Source of the DNA: Gallaecimonas kandeliae
GTDB taxonomy: Bacteria; Pseudomonadota; Gammaproteobacteria; Enterobacterales; Gallaecimonadaceae
NCBI RefSeq assembly: GCF_030450055.1
Contig: NZ_CP118480.1
Span: 1,329,415-1,393,414, forward strand
Direction of reading: 5' to 3'
Length of the DNA stretch: 64,000 nt
Shown piece by piece: positions 46,059 through 54,652 of this stretch. A model generated the notes under the pieces. It saw nothing but the letters and a program-made list of their open reading frames with translations, was not told the DNA's origin and did not search any database. The translations under genes were made by a program, and so were the position numbers. Positions within the stretch are counted from its first letter, which is position 1; the number at the start of each line of letters is the position of its first letter.

Positions 46059-46843
46059 TTAGGCTTGGCGGCTGGCCGCCTTCATGCCTTCGACAAACCT
46101 CGCCAGGGCCTTGGGCCCGCGCTCGGCCGCCTTCACGGTGGCGCTGCCGCTGATGGCGCCGTCGCAGCCGGCCTCCAACGCCGCCCTGACCTGGGACGGT
46201 TCCCCTATGCCAAAGCCCAGCACCACAGGGGCCGACTGGTAGCGCCGCAAGGTCTCGATGATGTGGCCCAGCGGCTTGCCGGCCGCCGTCTCCGTGCCTG
46301 TGACCCCGGCCCTCGATACCAGGTAGACGTAACCCTCGCTGAGTTCGGCCACGGCTTTGAGGGTTTCCTCCGAGCCGTTGGGGGGCGCTATCAGCACAGG
46401 CGCTACGCCGGCCGTCTTGGCGGCGGCCACGAAGGGCTGGGATTCCCTGACCGGCACGTCCGCCACCAGCACCGAATCCACCCCGGCGGCCTTGGCCTGC
46501 TGGTAGAAGCTGTCGATGCCGGCGGCAAAGACCAGGTTGGCGTAGGTCAGCAGCCCCACCGGGATCTGCGGGTACCTGTCTTTGAGGCGGCGGATAAGGT
46601 CCAACGCTTTTTGCGGCGTGGTGCCGGCAGCGAGGGCCCTCAGGGTCGCACCCTGGATGGTGGGGCCGTCGGCTACGGGATCGGAGAAGGGCATGCCCAG
46701 CTCCAGGGCGTCGGCGCCGTTTTCCACCAGCAGGCAGAGGTGCTCGAAACTGGTCTCCAGATCCGGGTCGCCCAGGGTCAGGAAGGGGATGAAGGCGCCT
46801 TCGTCCTGGGCTTTGAGGCGGTCAAAGAGGGATTGGTACAGGC

Positions 46844-46847
<4 letters not shown>
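46059..46847 (-). CDS. trpA: Tryptophan synthase alpha chain
   Basis: A 262-aa TIM barrel that cleaves indole-glycerol phosphate to indole. [20 protein letters not shown] holds the catalytic Glu and Asp, and PFLTLGDPD is the start motif. A few residues shorter than E. coli (268). It overlaps trpB by 4 bp (ATGA). Confidence 0.96.
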
Positions 46848-48018
<1,171 letters not shown>

Positions 48019-48022
<4 letters not shown>

Positions 48023-49368
48023 GCTTGCCTCATCAATTGGAATGTCTGCTGGATAAGGGCGGCGTCCTTGACGCCGGGGGCGGACTCCAGCTTGGAATTG
48101 AGATCCAGGCCCAGTATGCCGGGGACCTTGAGGGCGGCCTGGACATTGGCCGGGCCCAGGCCGCCGGCCAGCATCAGGGGCAGTTTGGCGGGGTTTTGGA
48201 TGGCCTGCCAGTCAAAGCTCTGGCCTGTGCCGCCGAATTGGCCGCCGTCCTGGCTGTCCAGCACCAGGCGGTCCACGGCCAGGGTGCTGGGGGCCTCCAC
48301 GGTGCTGGCCTTCCAGAGCTGCGCCTGTGTGAGGCCGCGCAGGGCCGCCACGTAGTCGGCATCTTCATCGCCGTGCAGCTGTACGGCGAAAAGCCCCAAG
48401 GCCTCGGCCGCCTCGGCCACTTCCGCCACCGGGGCGTCCTTGAAGACCCCCACATAAGCCAAAGGAGCGGCCTGGGTGATGGCCTTGGCCTCGGCCAGGG
48501 TCACTTGGCGGGGGCTCTTGGCGGCGAAGATGAGGCCGCCGTAGGTGGCGCCGGCTTCATAAGCGGCCTTGGCGTCCTGGGGCCGGGTCAGGCCGCAGAC
48601 CTTGTGCTCGCCGAGGATGAGCTGGCGGCAGGCGAGGTTGACGTCGCTCTTGCTCATCAGCTCGGATCCCACCAAGAAGCCCCTGGCCACCTTCCGCAGG
48701 CGCTGTACGTCGCCGTGGGTGCGGATCCCGGACTCGCTGATGATGACCCTGTCCTCGGGAATGCCCTCGGCCAGGGTCTCGGTACGGCGCAAATCGATGG
48801 ACAGGTCGTGGAGGTTGCGGTTGTTGATGCCGATGATGCGGGCGCCGAGGCGCACGGCCCTGTCCCGCTCCTCAGCGGTGGCCACTTCGGTCAGCACGTC
48901 CAGGCCGAATTTGCCGGCTTCCTCGGCCAGTTGCCGGTAGCTGGCGTCGTCCAGCACCGACAGCATCAAAAGGATGGCGTCGGCCCCCAGGTAGCGGGCC
49001 AGGCGCACTTGGAAGGGGTCGATGAAGAAGTCCTTCATCAGCACCGGCACCTTGACTTCGGCCGCCACCGCCGCCAGGTAATCAGGATGGCCCTGGAAGT
49101 AGGGCTCGTCGGTCAGCACCGAGATGCCGCTGGCGTAGGACTGGTAGGCCTTGGCCAGGGCCAAGGCATCGAAGTCGGGGCGGATCAGTCCCTTGGAGGG
49201 GCTGGCTTTCTTGCACTCGAGGATAAAGCCGCTGCCGTAGCGCAGGCTGTGTTCCAGGGAGCGCCGGGATTGGGGCAGGGCCATGGTGGCGGCCCTGGGA
49301 TAGCGGGCCTTGAGGGCCGGCAGGTCCGCTTTCTTGCGCTCAACGATCTGCTCAAGCACTGTCGCCAC
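48019..49368 (-). CDS. trpCF: Fused indole-glycerol-phosphate synthase / PRA isomerase
   Basis: A 449-aa fusion. TrpC part (about 1-255): [20 protein letters not shown] and [10 protein letters not shown]; TrpF part (about 258-449): [11 protein letters not shown] and [15 protein letters not shown]. The start is GTG at 49368, 7 bp after AGGAG, overlapping the trpD end by 17 bp. Confidence 0.95.
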
Positions 49369-50362
49369 GAAGGATCTCCTTGAGTTGTTGCAGGGTGGCG
49401 TGGGCCCGGCCGGACGCCAGTATCTCGGCGGCCAGGGCAACACCTTCCTTCAGACCGGCAGCCTTGCCGGCCAAGTAGAAGAGGGCCCCCGCATTGGCGG
49501 CCACAGCGTCAAAGTAAGGGCCGCGCTCGCCGGTCGCAAGCAGCTTTTCCAGGGCGGCGGCGTTGAAGGCGGCATCGCCGCCGGCCAGCTCGTCTATGGC
49601 CCTTTCCTCAAGGCCCAGATCCGCCGGGGTCAGCTTGTACTGGATAAGGGCGCCGTCCAGCAGCTCCACCACCTGGGTGGGGCCGTGCAGGGCCAGCTCG
49701 TCGAGGCCGCTGCCGTGCACCACCAGGGCCCGCTCCACTCCCAGGGCCTTGAGGGCGCTGGCCACCACGTCCAGCAGGGCGGGATCGTAGACCCCCATCA
49801 GCTGCAGGTTGGGGCGGGCGGGGTTGACCAGGGGCCCCACCAGGTTGAAGAGGGTGCGGGTCTTGAGCGCCCTGCGCACCGGCATGGCGTGTTTGATGCC
49901 GGGGTGGTATTGGGGGGCGGCGATAAAGCAGAGGTTGGTGTTCATCAAGGCGCGGTGGGCGACGGTGGACGGCACCGTCACCGGCACCCCCAGGGCGCCC
50001 AGCACGTCGGTGCTGCCGGACTGGGAGGACACGGCCCTGTTGCCGTGCTTGGCCACCTTGACGCCACCGGCGGCGGCCACGAAGGCGGCGGTGGTGGAGA
50101 TGTTGAGGGTGTTGGCGCCGTCACCGCCGGTGCCGCAGCAGTCGATGAGATCCCCCTGGGGCCGGGGGAAGGGATTGGCGGCGGCCAGCAGCGCCTGGGC
50201 CAGGCCCTGCAGTTCACTGCTCTGCTCGCCGCGCAGCTTCATGGCGGTGAGGGCGGCGGCAAGCGTCACGTCTTCGAGGCGGCCGGCGGCCATCTCTGTG
50301 AAGAAGGCCTGGGCCTCGGTCACGTCCAGGGCCTTGCCCTGCAGCAGCGTATCCAGGCTCAT
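49352..50362 (-). CDS. trpD: Anthranilate phosphoribosyltransferase
   Basis: A 336-aa enzyme transferring ribose phosphate to anthranilate. CCGTGGDGANTLNISTT is the PRPP loop, and KHGNRAVSSQSGSTDVLGAL the anthranilate region. It is separate from trpG, unlike E. coli. It overlaps trpG by 4 bp. Confidence 0.96.
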   Translation of the reverse strand: MSLDTLLQGKALDVTEAQAFFTEMAAGRLEDVTLAAALTAMKLRGEQSSELQGLAQALLAAANPFPRPQGDLIDCCGTGGDGANTLNISTTAAFVAAAGGVKVAKHGNRAVSSQSGSTDVLGALGVPVTVPSTVAHRALMNTNLCFIAAPQYHPGIKHAMPVRRALKTRTLFNLVGPLVNPARPNLQLMGVYDPALLDVVASALKALGVERALVVHGSGLDELALHGPTQVVELLDGALIQYKLTPADLGLEERAIDELAGGDAAFNAAALEKLLATGERGPYFDAVAANAGALFYLAGKAAGLKEGVALAAEILASGRAHATLQQLKEILRGDSA

Positions 50363-50937
50363 GATGCACCTCGCAGCAAAGTCAGGGCGTTGGCCAGCAG
50401 CTGGTGACCGCCTTGGGTCAGCAGGGACTCGGGGTGGAATTGCAGGCCCAGCGCCGGGTATTGCTTGTGGCTCACCGCCATCACCTGGTCTTCGCTGGTG
50501 GCCAGTACCGTCAGGCAGTCGGGCACCAGGTCGGCCACCAGGCTGTGGTAGCGGCCCACCATGGGGGCGCTGCCCATGCCCTGGAAGAGGGGATGGTCCT
50601 GGATGGCCAGGCGGAAGGCCTTGCCGTGGCGGGGCGGGGCCGAGCGCTTGAGGCTGCCGCCGCACAGCTCCACCAGGGCCTGGTGGCCCAGGCAGACGCC
50701 CAGCACCGGGAAGCGGCCCAGGGCTTCGGCCAGCAGTGCCTTGAGGTTGCCGGCCTGGTCCGGGGTGCCGGGGCCGGGGGAGATCAGCAGCACTGCGCCG
50801 CTCTGGCTTTGCAGCTTGGCCAGTACCGTCTCTACCGAGACGTTGTTGCGGTAGACCACCACTTCTTCGCCGAGGCGGCGGCAGTCGTCCACCAGGTTGT
50901 AGGTAAAGGAGTCGAAGTTATCCAGCAGCACTATCAT
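50359..50937 (-). CDS. trpG: Anthranilate synthase glutaminase subunit
   Basis: A 192-aa class I amidotransferase. VLGVCLGHQALVELCGG contains the nucleophilic Cys, and LGLQFHPESLLT the His-Glu pair. It supplies ammonia to TrpE, which it overlaps by 4 bp. Confidence 0.96.
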   Translation of the reverse strand: MIVLLDNFDSFTYNLVDDCRRLGEEVVVYRNNVSVETVLAKLQSQSGAVLLISPGPGTPDQAGNLKALLAEALGRFPVLGVCLGHQALVELCGGSLKRSAPPRHGKAFRLAIQDHPLFQGMGSAPMVGRYHSLVADLVPDCLTVLATSEDQVMAVSHKQYPALGLQFHPESLLTQGGHQLLANALTLLRGAS

Positions 50938-52442
50938 GACTGCACCTCCACGGCGCCCAGGGCCCGCAGTACAGAGGCGGCCTTGTGGCGGGTCTCGTCG
51001 GCTTCGAGCTGGGGGACCGAGTCGTAAACCACGCCGGCGCCGGCCTGGACGCAGGCCACGCCGTCCTGGACCAGGGCGGAGCGGATGACGATGGCGCTGT
51101 CCATGTCGCCGCGGGCGGTGAGGTAGCCGATGGCGCCGCCGTAGGCGCCGCGGCGGCGGCCTTCGGTCTCACGGATGAGGCGGGTGGCCATCAGTTTGGG
51201 GGCGCCGCTGAGGGTGCCCATGTTGAGCGCCGACTGGTAGGCGTGCAGGGCATCGAGATCGCCGCGCAAGGTGCCTTTGACCCGGGATACCAGGTGCATC
51301 ACCTTTTCGTAGCGGTCCACCTTGAGGAGATCGGTGACGGTGCGGCTGGCGGGCTCCGAGACCCGGGCCACGTCGTTGCGGGCCAAGTCCACCAGCATCA
51401 GGTGCTCGGCCTGCTCTTTCTCGTCCAGGCGCATCTCCAGTTCGAAACGGCTGTCTTCGTCGGCGTCGCTGCCGCGGGGTCGGGTGCCGGCGATGGGGTA
51501 GATGGCCAGCTCACGGCTCTGGCTGTCGACGGTCAGGGCGCTTTCCGGGCTGGCGCCGAAGAGCACGAAGTCGCCGGCGTTGAGATAAAACATGTAGGGG
51601 CTGGGGTTCTGGGCCCGCAGCGCCTGGTAGCTGATGAGGGGCGCAGGGCAGGGGGCCAAGAAGCGCCGCGAGGGCACCACCTGGAAGCAGTCGCCGGCGA
51701 GGATGTGCTCCTTGAGGGCCGATACCTGGGCCTTGAAGGCCTCGTCGTCCGGCTCTACCCGCGCCTGGGGCGGGGCTTGGATGGCCAGGGCCGGCAGGGG
51801 AGCGGCCTGGGCCAGCTGCTGCTGGTAACCGGCCAGGCGCCGGGACAGCTCGAAGTAGCTGGCGGAGCCCTGGCCACCCAGGGCCAGGGCCAGCAGGGTG
51901 GCGCTGCCGGTGCGGTGGTTTAGGTAGAGGGCGGTCTCGGCAAGGTACAGGCAGAGATCCGGCACCCTTTCGTTGCCGTCGAGCTCGGGCAGATCCTCGA
52001 GGCTGGCCACCAGATCGAAACCGAAGAGGCCGGCCACCAGGCTCTCGAAGGGCAGGTCGGCGTCCTTGGGCAAGAGCGCCAGCAATTCCCGCAGCACCGT
52101 GAAGACAGAAGGGGCCTTGAGGCGGCTGTCCTCGTCCAGCTCGGTGTCCGGCTGCTCGAAGCTCAGGCTGAAGGTATTGCCTTCCACCTGGGCATTGAGG
52201 CGCTCCGCCAGCACCGGCAGCAGCACCTCGCCGTTGGCGGTGAGGGCCTGGACAGTGACGGTGCGGCCGAGGGCGGTGATCTTCAGGGCCGCGTCCGTGA
52301 TGACCAGGCTCTGGGTGGCGTTGCCGGCGCTGGGCTCGGCGGATTCCAGCAGCAGGCTGTGGGTCTTGGCCCCCAGGGCCCGGTAGGCCACCAGGGGATC
52401 GGGGCAGGCGCCGAGGCGCAGGCGCAGCAGGGCGGGTCTCAC
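50934..52442 (-). CDS. trpE: Anthranilate synthase component I
   Basis: A 502-aa chorismate-using enzyme. HSLLLESAEPS includes the LLES tryptophan feedback site. PIAGTRPRGSDADEDSRFEL and DLARNDVARV are catalytic and Mg motifs. The start is GTG overlapping the DAHP synthase stop (GTGA). Confidence 0.97.
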   Translation of the reverse strand: MRPALLRLRLGACPDPLVAYRALGAKTHSLLLESAEPSAGNATQSLVITDAALKITALGRTVTVQALTANGEVLLPVLAERLNAQVEGNTFSLSFEQPDTELDEDSRLKAPSVFTVLRELLALLPKDADLPFESLVAGLFGFDLVASLEDLPELDGNERVPDLCLYLAETALYLNHRTGSATLLALALGGQGSASYFELSRRLAGYQQQLAQAAPLPALAIQAPPQARVEPDDEAFKAQVSALKEHILAGDCFQVVPSRRFLAPCPAPLISYQALRAQNPSPYMFYLNAGDFVLFGASPESALTVDSQSRELAIYPIAGTRPRGSDADEDSRFELEMRLDEKEQAEHLMLVDLARNDVARVSEPASRTVTDLLKVDRYEKVMHLVSRVKGTLRGDLDALHAYQSALNMGTLSGAPKLMATRLIRETEGRRRGAYGGAIGYLTARGDMDSAIVIRSALVQDGVACVQAGAGVVYDSVPQLEADETRHKAASVLRALGAVEVQS

Positions 52443-53452
52443 AGGGTCCTCCCGGCGGCGGCCACGAAGGGTTTGAGTTCGCGCATCAGCTGTTCGAACA
52501 TGGCGGCGGTCAGGGCCTGGTGGCCGTCGGAGAGGGCTTCCTTGGGATTGAGGTGGGCCTCGACGATGACGCCATCGGCGCCGACGGCGGCGGCGGCCCG
52601 GGCCAGGGGGATCACCAGCTCGCGGATGCCGGTGCCGTGGGAAGGGTCCACCACCACCGGCAGGTGGGTCTTCTGCTTCAGCAGGGCCACGGCGTTAAGA
52701 TCCAGGGTGTTGCGGGTGGCGGTCTCGAAGGTGCGGATGCCGCGCTCGCAGAGCACCACTTGGGGGTTGCCGTGGGCGACTATGTATTCGGCGGCCAGCA
52801 GGAACTCTTCGATGCTGGCGGACAGGCCTCTTTTCAGCATCACCGGCTTGCCGCAGCGGCCCACCGCTTCCAGCAGCCGGTAGTTGTACATGTTGCGGGC
52901 GCCGATCTGCAGCATGTCCACGTGCTCGGCCATGGCGTCCACGTCTTCCGGGCTCACCACCTCGGAGACGGTGGGCAACCCCAGCACCTCGTTGGCTTCC
53001 TTGAGCAGCTTGAGGCCTTCCAGACCCAGGCCCTGGAAGGCGTAGGGGCTGGTGCGGGGCTTGAAGGCGCCGCCGCGCAGACCGATGGCGCCGTGGTGCT
53101 GGACCATTTCTGCCACCCCCAGCAGCTGCTCGCGGGATTCCACGGCGCAGGGCCCGGCAATGACCACGAAACGCTCGCCGCCGATCTTGACCTTGCCCAG
53201 CGGCACCTGGGTGTCGTGGGGATGCAGTTCGCGGGACACCAGCTTGTGCTTGGAGAGGATGGGTTTGACCTCCTCCACTATGGGGTCGGCTTCGAGGTTC
53301 AGCTCGTCCAGCACCCGCTCGTCGCCGATGGCACCGAGGACGATGCGCTCGACGCCGGGCATGTAGAGGGGCTTGAGGTTCTTGGCTTCGATGCGGGCGA
53401 GGATGGTCTTGGCATCGGCTTCGGTGGCATGGGGTTTCAGTACGATGATCAT
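52439..53452 (-). CDS. DAHP synthase, type I-beta with N-terminal regulatory domain
   Basis: A 337-aa enzyme for the first shikimate step (PEP plus erythrose-4-phosphate). An N-terminal ferredoxin-like regulatory domain (about 1-70) precedes the barrel with VIAGPCAVESREQLLGVAEM and VVDPSHGTGIRELVIPLAR. This form (Thermotoga/Bacillus type) differs from E. coli AroFGH. It overlaps trpE by 4 bp and is preceded by the two leader attenuators, so it is co-regulated with tryptophan genes. The N-terminal domain usually gives feedback inhibition. Confidence 0.9.
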   Translation of the reverse strand: MIIVLKPHATEADAKTILARIEAKNLKPLYMPGVERIVLGAIGDERVLDELNLEADPIVEEVKPILSKHKLVSRELHPHDTQVPLGKVKIGGERFVVIAGPCAVESREQLLGVAEMVQHHGAIGLRGGAFKPRTSPYAFQGLGLEGLKLLKEANEVLGLPTVSEVVSPEDVDAMAEHVDMLQIGARNMYNYRLLEAVGRCGKPVMLKRGLSASIEEFLLAAEYIVAHGNPQVVLCERGIRTFETATRNTLDLNAVALLKQKTHLPVVVDPSHGTGIRELVIPLARAAAAVGADGVIVEAHLNPKEALSDGHQALTAAMFEQLMRELKPFVAAAGRTL

Positions 53453-53476
53453 GATGTTTTCCTTTGATTCAAAAAC

Positions 53477-53504
53477 GAAAAAGCCCGCTTTCTCAGCGGG
53501 CTTT
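53477..53504 (-). terminator. trp attenuator terminator 2
   Basis: AAGCCCGCT-GAGAA-AGCGGGCTT then TTTCG on the minus strand, 25 bp before the DAHP synthase start. The segment GCGGGCT at the end of leader 2 can pair with its first arm, giving the antiterminator. Confidence 0.88.
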
Positions 53505-53536
53505 TGGATGTCGGTTCGACAAACAACAAGGTGCAG

Positions 53537-53602
53537 CTAGCCCGCCTGAAGCCAGGAGCGCCACCACCAACGGAAAGTCATGCTGTTTGTCTTGCTGCTC
53601 AT
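53537..53602 (-). CDS. Second Trp leader peptide
   Basis: A 21-aa peptide with the run RWWWRSW at residues 11-17 (four Trp). It starts at 53602 right after the first terminator and ends in TAG. GGAG lies 11 bp upstream and AAGG 2 bp upstream. The sequence GCGGGCT spans the codons before the stop and complements terminator 2. Confidence 0.85.
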   Translation of the reverse strand: MSSKTNSMTFRWWWRSWLQAG

Positions 53603-53623
53603 TGCCTTAAAAACTCCAGAAAC

Positions 53624-53650
53624 GAAAAAGGGCCCGCTTTCTGCGGGCCC
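53624..53650 (-). terminator. trp attenuator terminator 1
   Basis: GGGCCCGC-AGAAA-GCGGGCCC then TTTTTCG on the minus strand. It shares the loop AGAAAGCGGGC and TTTTTCGTTT with terminator 2, suggesting duplication. GCGGGCT directly after leader 1 can pair with its first arm. Confidence 0.9.
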
Positions 53651-53689
53651 TTCTTGGAAATCGTAAACACGACCAAGCTCACAGCCCGC

Positions 53690-53737
53690 TTAAGGGTTGT
53701 GCCACCACCAGATGAGGTTGAATGCTTGGTTTTGCAT
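53690..53737 (-). CDS. trpL: First Trp leader peptide
   Basis: A 15-aa peptide MQNQAFNLIWWWHNP with three consecutive Trp codons. It ends in TAA followed by GCGGGCT. It is the classical leader for ribosome-mediated attenuation; starved ribosomes stall at WWW and prevent terminator 1. Confidence 0.92.
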   Translation of the reverse strand: MQNQAFNLIWWWHNP

Positions 53738-53774
53738 GGGTCGTGTTTCTTTCAATAGTTGAATTGCTATCCAA

Positions 53775-53801
53775 GCTATAGGCCTTTTTTACCCCTGTCA
53801 A
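53775..53801 (-). promoter_or_regulatory. Candidate trp operon promoter
   Basis: TTGACA (53796-53801) with TATAGC 15 bp later (53775-53780), 38 bp before the leader 1 start codon. The -35 is perfect. I see no clear TrpR operator. Confidence 0.6.
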
Positions 53802-53827: not shown

Positions 53828-54652
53828 ATGCTTTACGACCTGCACAGCCACACCCATTTTTCCGACGGCCGCCTCTCCCCCAGGGAGCTGGTGGCGCGGG
53901 CTATTGAGCGCCGGGTAAGCCACCTGGCCATCACCGATCATGACAGCGTCGCGGGCCTCGCCGAAGCCCGAGAAGCGGCGGGAGAGGCGCTTGAGCTCAT
54001 CAACGGCATCGAGTTTTCCACCTGCTGGCAGAACAAGGAGATCCACGTGGTGGGTCTCTGGGTGGAGCCGCAGCATGAGGCCCTGACCACCCTCATCGCC
54101 GCCCAGGCCGAGCGCCGGGAGCGGCGCGCAGAGGAAATGGCCAGGCGCCTGGAGAAGGCCCGGGTGCCCGGCGCCCTGGAAGGCGCCCGCGCCCTGGCAG
54201 GCTCAGGCACCCTGACCCGGGCCCATTTCGCGCAGTACATCATGAACCAGGGCAAGGCCCCGACCATGCAGGCGGTGTTCAAGAAATACCTGACCCGCGG
54301 CAACCCCGGTTATGTGCCGCCACCCTGGCCCGAGATGGGCGAGGCCATTGCGGCTATCAGGGCTGCCGGCGGCGTCGCCGTGCTGGCCCACCCGGGCCGC
54401 TATAAGCTTTCCGGTAAATGGCTGCGCAAGCTGGTGGCGGACTTTGCCGAGCAGGGCGGCCAGGCCCTGGAAGTGGCCCAGTGCCAGCAACCCCTGAATG
54501 AGCGGCGTTTCCTGGCGGAATTGGCCGCCGAGCACCAACTCGCCGGCTCCCAGGGGTCCGATTTTCATTACCCCAGCCCTTTTTCGGAGCTGGGGCGCAA
54601 CCTTTACCTGCCGGCGGGCTGCCGCGCAGTCTGGGAGAGGGAATCCTTATGA
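53828..54652 (+). CDS. rnm: 5'-3' exoribonuclease RNase AM (YciV/TrpH)
   Basis: A 274-aa PHP-domain phosphoesterase. DLHSHTHFSDG, ITDHDSVAG, VLAHPGRYK and GSDFHYP bind three metals. It matures the 5' ends of rRNAs and degrades short RNAs. Divergent from the trp leader and overlapping yciO by 4 bp, as in E. coli. Confidence 0.94.
   Translation: MLYDLHSHTHFSDGRLSPRELVARAIERRVSHLAITDHDSVAGLAEAREAAGEALELINGIEFSTCWQNKEIHVVGLWVEPQHEALTTLIAAQAERRERRAEEMARRLEKARVPGALEGARALAGSGTLTRAHFAQYIMNQGKAPTMQAVFKKYLTRGNPGYVPPPWPEMGEAIAAIRAAGGVAVLAHPGRYKLSGKWLRKLVADFAEQGGQALEVAQCQQPLNERRFLAELAAEHQLAGSQGSDFHYPSPFSELGRNLYLPAGCRAVWERESL

Follow-up and report, generated by a model that had tools for sequence, protein, structure and literature searches.

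Two candidate tryptophan attenuators in series ahead of a DAHP synthase-trp operon in Gallaecimonas kandeliae, in a genome without a match to TrpR

The trp attenuator is a textbook example of control at the RNA level, and it is taught as a single module backed by a repressor. In a 64,000-nucleotide stretch of the Gallaecimonas kandeliae genome, referred to here as the window, two short Trp-rich reading frames, each followed by a GC-rich stem and a U run, lie one behind the other upstream of a DAHP synthase (DAHPS) gene and the trp genes (Table 1). Do both control the operon, and do they answer the same signal? We read them as two ribosome-mediated attenuators for one shared signal, arranged in series between a single promoter and the DAHPS-trp operon, and put the probability of this reading at roughly 0.83. 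Serial attenuation had been proposed by a first-pass annotation made from the letters of the DNA; the four-region anatomy, folding, conservation within the genus and recurrence in relatives described below support it. Three points go beyond that annotation: DAHPS as the first gene, the wide spread of the layout, and the absence of a TrpR match from this genome.

Table 1. Features of the tandem leader region and the operon downstream (positions in the window).
Feature	Position	Strand	Remarks
RNase RNM family gene	53828-54652	+	divergent neighbour, outside the switch
Predicted sigma-70 promoter, TTGACA-N17-TAGCTT	53773-53801 (hexamers 53801-53796, 53778-53773)	-	not listed by the consensus scan
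Leader peptide 1, 15 aa, MQNQAFNLIWWWHNP	53737-53690	-	Trp codons (WWW) 53710-53702
Module 1 region 2, GCGGGCT	53683-53689	-	antiterminator arm, 7 bp with region 3
Module 1 terminator stem and U run	53655-53625	-	missed by the generic scan
Module 1 region 3, GGGCCCGC	53650-53643	-	
Module 1 region 4, GCGGGCCC	53637-53630	-	
Module 1 U run	53629-53625	-	
Leader peptide 2, 21 aa, MSSKTNSMTFRWWWRSWLQAG	53602-53537	-	Trp codons 53569-53561 and 53554-53552
Module 2 region 2, GCGGGCT	53539-53545	-	overlaps last codons and stop of leader 2
Module 2 terminator	53505-53479	-	Trp_leader 50.8 bits over 53475-53575; also found by the generic scan
Module 2 region 3, AAAAGCCCGCT	53505-53495	-	
Module 2 region 4, AGCGGGCTTTT	53489-53479	-	
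DAHP synthase (3-deoxy-7-phosphoheptulonate synthase), PRK08673/TIGR01361 type	52439-53452	-	first structural gene
trpE	50934-52442	-	family match
trpG	50359-50937	-	family match
trpD	49352-50665	-	family match from residue 105; true start likely internal to the ORF
trpC-trpF fusion	48019-49443	-	family match from residue 26
trpB	46844-48022	-	family match
trpA	46059-47009	-	family match from residue 62

The annotation had described two complete attenuator modules, and the coordinates, the peptides and a mechanical scan of the 64 kb window confirm that description. It had also placed GCGGGCT after the leader 1 stop codon and within the last codons of leader 2, correctly in both cases. Directly 3' of the leader 1 stop codon stands GCGGGCTGTG, followed by a GC stem with a U run, and the region cores of both modules in this genome are GCGGGC/GCCCGC. 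Sequences shared by the two terminators had been pointed out as well. The sharing of AGAAAGCGGGC holds in this genome but is accidental: the sequence spans loops, which differ among genus members, and it is therefore no evidence of a recent duplication of one module, an origin we consider unsupported.

A mechanical rule recovered both modules in the window, with ORF 1 begun at an upstream TTG; it calls a module where a short ORF encodes two Trp residues close together and a GC stem-loop with TTTT comes 10-130 nt after it. A third match, at 42130-41952, was false, its peptide having no close Trp pair. None of 30 dinucleotide-shuffled windows gave any match to this rule, and a strict rule applied to shuffled leaders (the 520 nt upstream of DAHPS in relatives) found even one module in 0/1080. 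Generic tools saw less of the arrangement. Plain folding z-scores were modest, at -2.47 and -1.71 for the two modules; a terminator scan listed terminator 2 and not terminator 1, whose stem runs into its U tract, and its 6 terminator-like sites were no excess over the mean of 6.6 in shuffles. Pfam had no match for six of seven leader peptides tried, and the seventh, from a relative, matched Trp_leader2. Against the Rfam Trp_leader model (RF00513), module 2 scored above the 41-bit gathering cut-off, and module 1 reached 27.1 bits, under that cut-off and no higher than other sub-cut-off places in the same genome, which score up to 31.1 bits; module 1 is accordingly classed here by its anatomy and not as a member of RF00513. 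Fifteen tandem loci were searched with Rfam at the cut-off; a single module was recovered in 6 and both modules in none. Annotation based on Rfam would overlook the tandem arrangement.

For the two modules to act in series, both should lie on one transcript. The predicted promoter (Table 1) lies 64 nt before ATG 1, placing the predicted start near 53766, so that about 28 nt of 5' UTR would precede leader 1. The consensus promoter scan found no promoters in the region, and this likely upstream promoter was missed by the same scan. Within the genus, TTGACA stands at -63 to -66 from ATG 1 in four of five members and at -36 in the fifth, and TTGAC occurs at most 150 nt upstream of leader 1 in 34 of the 36 loci that have two modules by the strict rule (hereafter strict tandem loci). 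A promoter between the modules, which the annotation had named as evidence that would count against its reading, was looked for by sequence and none was seen: the window has no TTGAC between stop 1 and ATG 2, the consensus scan found no promoter there, and the 22-nt gap from terminator 1 to ATG 2 is too short to leave room for one. On this sequence evidence we reject such a promoter for the window. Over the 36 strict tandem loci the same gap ranges from 0 to 71 nt with a median of 42, and is below 36 nt in 14; TTGAC lies between stop 1 and ATG 2 in three of them (L078, L084, L121).

The position of the upstream hexamer suggests a further feature of the relatives. TTGAC stands 34-39 nt before ATG 1 in 31 of 41 tandem loci (for example L047, L081, L083, L120, L126 and L132) versus 1 of 12 other loci. 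The 41 are the 36 strict loci and five recognized by eye; the measurement for L077 was improper, no spacing was obtained for L079 or L123, and many of the second hexamers are poor. With TTGAC at 34-39 nt, transcription would start at or next to the AUG, so that a leaderless leader mRNA is predicted. The two gates may thus differ in kind, gate 1 often being read from a predicted leaderless mRNA in relatives and gate 2 having to start internally. Two other amino acid operons of this genome were also inspected. At the leuA locus (L225) a Leu-rich leader is followed by one attenuator-like terminator, and TTGACA lies 36 nt before an in-frame leader ATG (by eye), suggesting a leaderless leader mRNA there too. 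The hisG locus (L224) has a single His attenuator, MNTVLLNIALHHHHHATE and one terminator; the his leader packs its codons in one peptide (HHHHH), and trp uses two leaders. With one attenuator each in his and leu, the two operons examined, tandem control as a genome-wide habit is rejected.

Both modules are present in the same place in all five genus members searched. In the genus alignment the Trp codons and regions 2, 3 and 4 of both modules are kept, and loops and spacers drift; the WWWHNP block of leader 1 and the WWW..SW..QAG pattern of leader 2 are each kept in 5/5. Leader 2 of this genome reads RWWWRSWLQAG, with Arg codons flanking the Trp run on both sides, as might be expected if the gates sensed different things, leader 1 Trp and leader 2 another aromatic amino acid, the rate of translation or the supply of arginine. 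The Salmonella mgtCBR leader sets a precedent for paired attenuators that answer two signals (PMC3641672, in excerpt). One relative in the order, L046 (G026), in which no trpE was seen after DAHPS, has a leader (by eye) MNLSHQYFYFFGWFCSHSGREGMVCG, rich in mixed Phe, Tyr and Trp codons and followed by one terminator; this leader is possibly a general aromatic sensor, and leader codons can therefore widen. Against separate signals, leader 2 of the other four genus members is WWWWHSWRQAG, with a longer Trp run and His in place of the adjacent Arg, and both leaders contain close Trp pairs in 36/36 strict tandem loci, which is weak evidence because the rule demands them. We judge separate signals improbable and retain a shared Trp signal for both gates.

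Ribosome-dependent switching was modelled by folding nascent RNA that ran from the ribosome edge through region 3 and stopped short of region 4; the edge was assumed to lie 13 nt downstream of the A-site codon's first base. With the ribosome on the Trp codons, the mean pairing of region 3 was 0.83 in module 1 and 0.76 in module 2, versus 0.03 and 0.01, respectively, with the ribosome at the stop codon. The test was extended to a set of 89 modules, 87 of them different in sequence from these two; stalled values exceeded stop values in 87 of the 89, with medians of 0.77 and 0.09. A shorter RNA offers fewer partners, and a spacer-shuffled control therefore matters; its medians were 0.50 stalled and 0.41 at the stop codon, and the difference between the two states was larger than the mean of the module's own spacer shuffles in 82 of 89 modules. 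The leader of L212, E. coli-like by its TrpL sequence, gave 0.62 stalled and 0.00 at the stop codon in the same test. When region 4 was included, the terminator was the minimum-energy fold at every ribosome position, so that the switch relies on the order in which the regions are transcribed, just as the classical model has it. Stalling at the fourth Trp codon of leader 2 gave a weaker antiterminator (0.53). From these folds, each module is predicted to have the position-dependent antiterminator of a ribosome-mediated attenuator.

The folds also bear on what each gate would do when untranslated. With no ribosome present, region 3 pairing in this genome was 0.83 in module 1 and 0.29 in module 2, so that a ribosome-free module 1 is predicted to antiterminate too. 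This asymmetry is not general, the ribosome-free medians over the 36 tandem loci being 0.76 for first and 0.66 for second modules. Ribosome-free module 2 is also high in two of the five genus members (0.74 and 0.87); here and in two further genus members of the five, lack of translation is predicted to close gate 2 and not gate 1.

Changes in the stem core provide a separate view of the antiterminator. The terminator arm lacks CCCGC in nine of 89 modules. In eight of the nine, region 2 pairs more strongly with the region 3 of its own module than it does, on average, with standard ones, by a narrow margin in L121 and L135; only L050 departs from this. Compensated cores include CCCGTT/AACGGG (L127), CCCGTC/GACGGG (L130) and, with G-U pairs, CCCACTT/AGGTGGG (L071). 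Where the stem core has changed, the antiterminator arm has thus mostly changed along with it. In L085, L124, L127 and L130 the change is confined to module 1, module 2 retaining the standard core, so that internal consistency is maintained separately in each module. Averaged over the full set, pairing was 18.6 with a module's own region 3 and 17.3 with a swapped one, a small gap that reflects how similar most cores are. Pairing across modules as a general coupling device is unsupported, the module 1 core differing from that of module 2 in L079, L085, L121, L124, L127 and L130.

The annotation had suggested searching relatives for one versus two modules. DAHPS of this type (E <= 1e-80) occurs in 56 of 394 sampled genomes of the order. 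We examined 54 DAHPS-led loci, leaving out L051 (92 nt upstream only) and G339 (gene at a contig edge), over a span of 520 nt upstream of DAHPS; the strict-rule count also dropped L092, L114 and L115, and families carry tool-assigned labels, f1-f27. By the strict rule two modules were found in 36 of the 54 loci, one in 16 and none in 2. A trpE match followed DAHPS in 51 of the 54, a weak match to the start of trpE only in most loci of one batch; none was seen within the stretch examined in L046, L134 and L136. Five further loci have two modules by eye and were missed by the strict rule, as the second terminator is imperfect (L049), the second ORF extends past its own terminator (L052), the upstream terminator has too few GC pairs (L077), the first module lies outside the 520 nt searched (L122) or the second short ORF has a single Trp (L135). 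L122 (G392) also has about 300 nt with imperfect repeats around CCAGGGATGGACTGTATG between its second module and DAHPS. Leader 1 of L136 (G383) appears broken, with a stop before the Trp codons, and a promoter-like site and a terminator remain.

Outside the order, 25 of 26 class-level loci had no module by the strict rule and 1 had one; the four of them with trpE following, L089-L092, each showed a single Trp leader in a looser scan. Among 77 trpE-led loci, none had two complete modules, 45 had one module alone, 16 had one module and a second Trp ORF without a detected terminator, and 16 had none by rule. In a DAHPS tree rooted on four loci outside the order, two-module operons occupy the deepest branches inside the order, with four changes among three labelled states; several inner branches of this tree are weak, 7 of its 59 rows are unlabelled, four labels were given by eye, and L122 stands as unclear.

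Two kinds of second ORF without a detected terminator were seen in relatives. In five DAHPS-led f7 loci (L071, L073, L074, L075, L076) a second short reading frame, MLTTKVKSWFIWWLQPIYAG or a near-identical one, lies 30-33 nt ahead of DAHPS, and L171 has the same type upstream of trpE. Among the six, variation falls most often at third positions and is synonymous at 8 of 13 variable codons, which suggests that the amino acid sequence is what is conserved; it may act as an arrest peptide or as a translational device. The other kind, a WRW short ORF (e.g. MIFQLKKHNWRW) after terminator 1, occurs in TrpR-less L151, L152 and L197-L202 (f25), L159 and L160 (f12), L165, L166 and L208 (f13), and the DAHPS-led L068 and L069 (f25); by the same rule, the TrpR-carrying f12 genome examined (L177) has no WRW second ORF. 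Release of the DAHPS ribosome site by the terminator-less ORFs of f7 and f25 was considered and rejected, as no consistent fold change with ribosome position was seen in seven loci.

These second leaders bear on whether both modules work in the tandem loci. One gate can evidently exist without a terminator, because seven loci of f7 and f25 have a second leader and no detected second terminator, and module 1 of this genome scores under the Rfam cut-off; both points would suit a single working module accompanied by a decaying or constitutive remnant of a duplication. Such a remnant would not be expected to keep its functional blocks in 5/5 genus members as loops and spacers drift, which both modules do. 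Nor does it fit the folding test, in which 34 of 36 first modules and 30 of 36 second modules of the strict tandem loci switch by more than 0.2, or the four first modules with a compensated core of their own. We consider a single working module unlikely, and two working attenuators in series the better account.

What accompanies the second module? The TrpR model (TIGR01321, E 0.001) had no match in this genome (G000) or in G001-G004. It matched 178 of 394 genomes of the order, none of them a two-module genome. The three DAHPS-led operons in TrpR-carrying genomes, all in f6, have a single module each; strict two-module loci thus number 36 of 51 TrpR-less versus 0 of 3 TrpR-carrying DAHPS-led loci, a contrast that depends on one family (f6, 3 loci). 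In trpE-led loci a second Trp ORF follows terminator 1 in 0/30 TrpR-carrying and 16/47 TrpR-less cases, the remaining TrpR-less loci having one module without a second Trp ORF (26/47) or none by rule (5/47). The association is suggestive only: loci of one family are related by descent, and many leaders in TrpR-less genomes have just one module. Loss of TrpR as a sufficient cause is rejected: one module stands alone in f10, f16, f20 and most f7 leaders examined, all TrpR-less. Published regulon work describes TrpR as retained across many groups of Gammaproteobacteria and missing from other classes, and places the Shewanella trp operon outside the TrpR regulon, with control by attenuation (PMC5343134, in excerpt). 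Tentatively, a TrpR-less lineage might control the aromatic gateway enzyme and the trp operon by RNA alone, two serial attenuators replacing attenuator plus repressor and forming an AND gate on Trp starvation; the terminator-less second Trp ORF of TrpR-less f7, f12, f13 and f25 would be a further form of RNA-only control.

In the proposed mechanism both gates would respond to charged tRNA-Trp. A ribosome held at the Trp codons would leave region 2 free to pair with region 3 as the antiterminator, and one reaching the stop codon would cover region 2, allowing region 3 to pair with region 4 as the terminator. Because RNA polymerase would have to get through both gates, the two fractions that read through should multiply when Trp is plentiful, and full expression would need Trp starvation to be sensed twice. 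We infer that the terminators act in vivo, that read-through multiplies in this way and that the pair stands in for TrpR; the wider range and sharper response that the annotation had expected of serial gates would follow from the same model. The tandem layout may provide a dynamic range that in other genomes comes from a repressor. A natural double trp attenuator, recurring in dozens of genomes without a TrpR match, makes it testable how serial gates for the same signal shape range and sensitivity.

Compared with the classical E. coli-type trp attenuator (RF00513), each module has the same Trp-rich leader peptide, competing 2:3 and 3:4 pairings and U-tract terminator; the locus differs in having two complete modules, DAHPS as the first gene and no TrpR match in the genome. 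The trpLE(G) operon of Sinorhizobium meliloti likewise combines Trp attenuation with an absence of promoter repression, and its trpL RNA starts at the leader AUG, a known leaderless case, as predicted for 31 of 41 tandem loci; it differs in having one module, in an alphaproteobacterium, and from the 5' UTR predicted here (PMC7298713, in excerpt). That system also suggests another role for module 1. The S. meliloti leader RNA rnTrpL and peptide peTrpL act in trans, and its trp leader operon is said to be unrepressed at the promoter (PMC7298713, in excerpt), so the product of terminator 1, a Trp-signalled short RNA or leader peptide, could itself matter in trans, with gate 2 controlling the operon. 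Leader peptide 1, however, varies between families upstream of the Trp codons, and a trans-acting product is compatible with serial attenuation and does not exclude it. As a replacement for two gates in series we regard it as very improbable.

No account of paired trp leader peptides was found in the open-access literature searched, which took in excerpts of two surveys, one on leader peptides (PMC4833913) and one on regulatory RNAs of Shewanella (PMC2659441). The excerpt of PMC3641672 calls the tandem attenuators of mgtCBR a singular example. There, as is proposed here, a single leader holds two short ORFs that govern whether transcription enters the coding region; the mgtCBR ORFs answer different signals, ATP and proline, whereas both leaders here are Trp-coded and, unlike those of mgtCBR, each is then followed by its own intrinsic terminator. 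Bacillota trp operons carry two, rarely three, complete T-boxes for the same signal in series, for which a digital-like, pseudo-cooperative response is expected (PMC12452182, in excerpt). T-boxes bind uncharged tRNA directly (PMC12452182, in excerpt), whereas here a translating ribosome would read the Trp codons. By this analogy, the arrangement in Gallaecimonas and its relatives is best read as the leader-peptide counterpart of tandem T-boxes.
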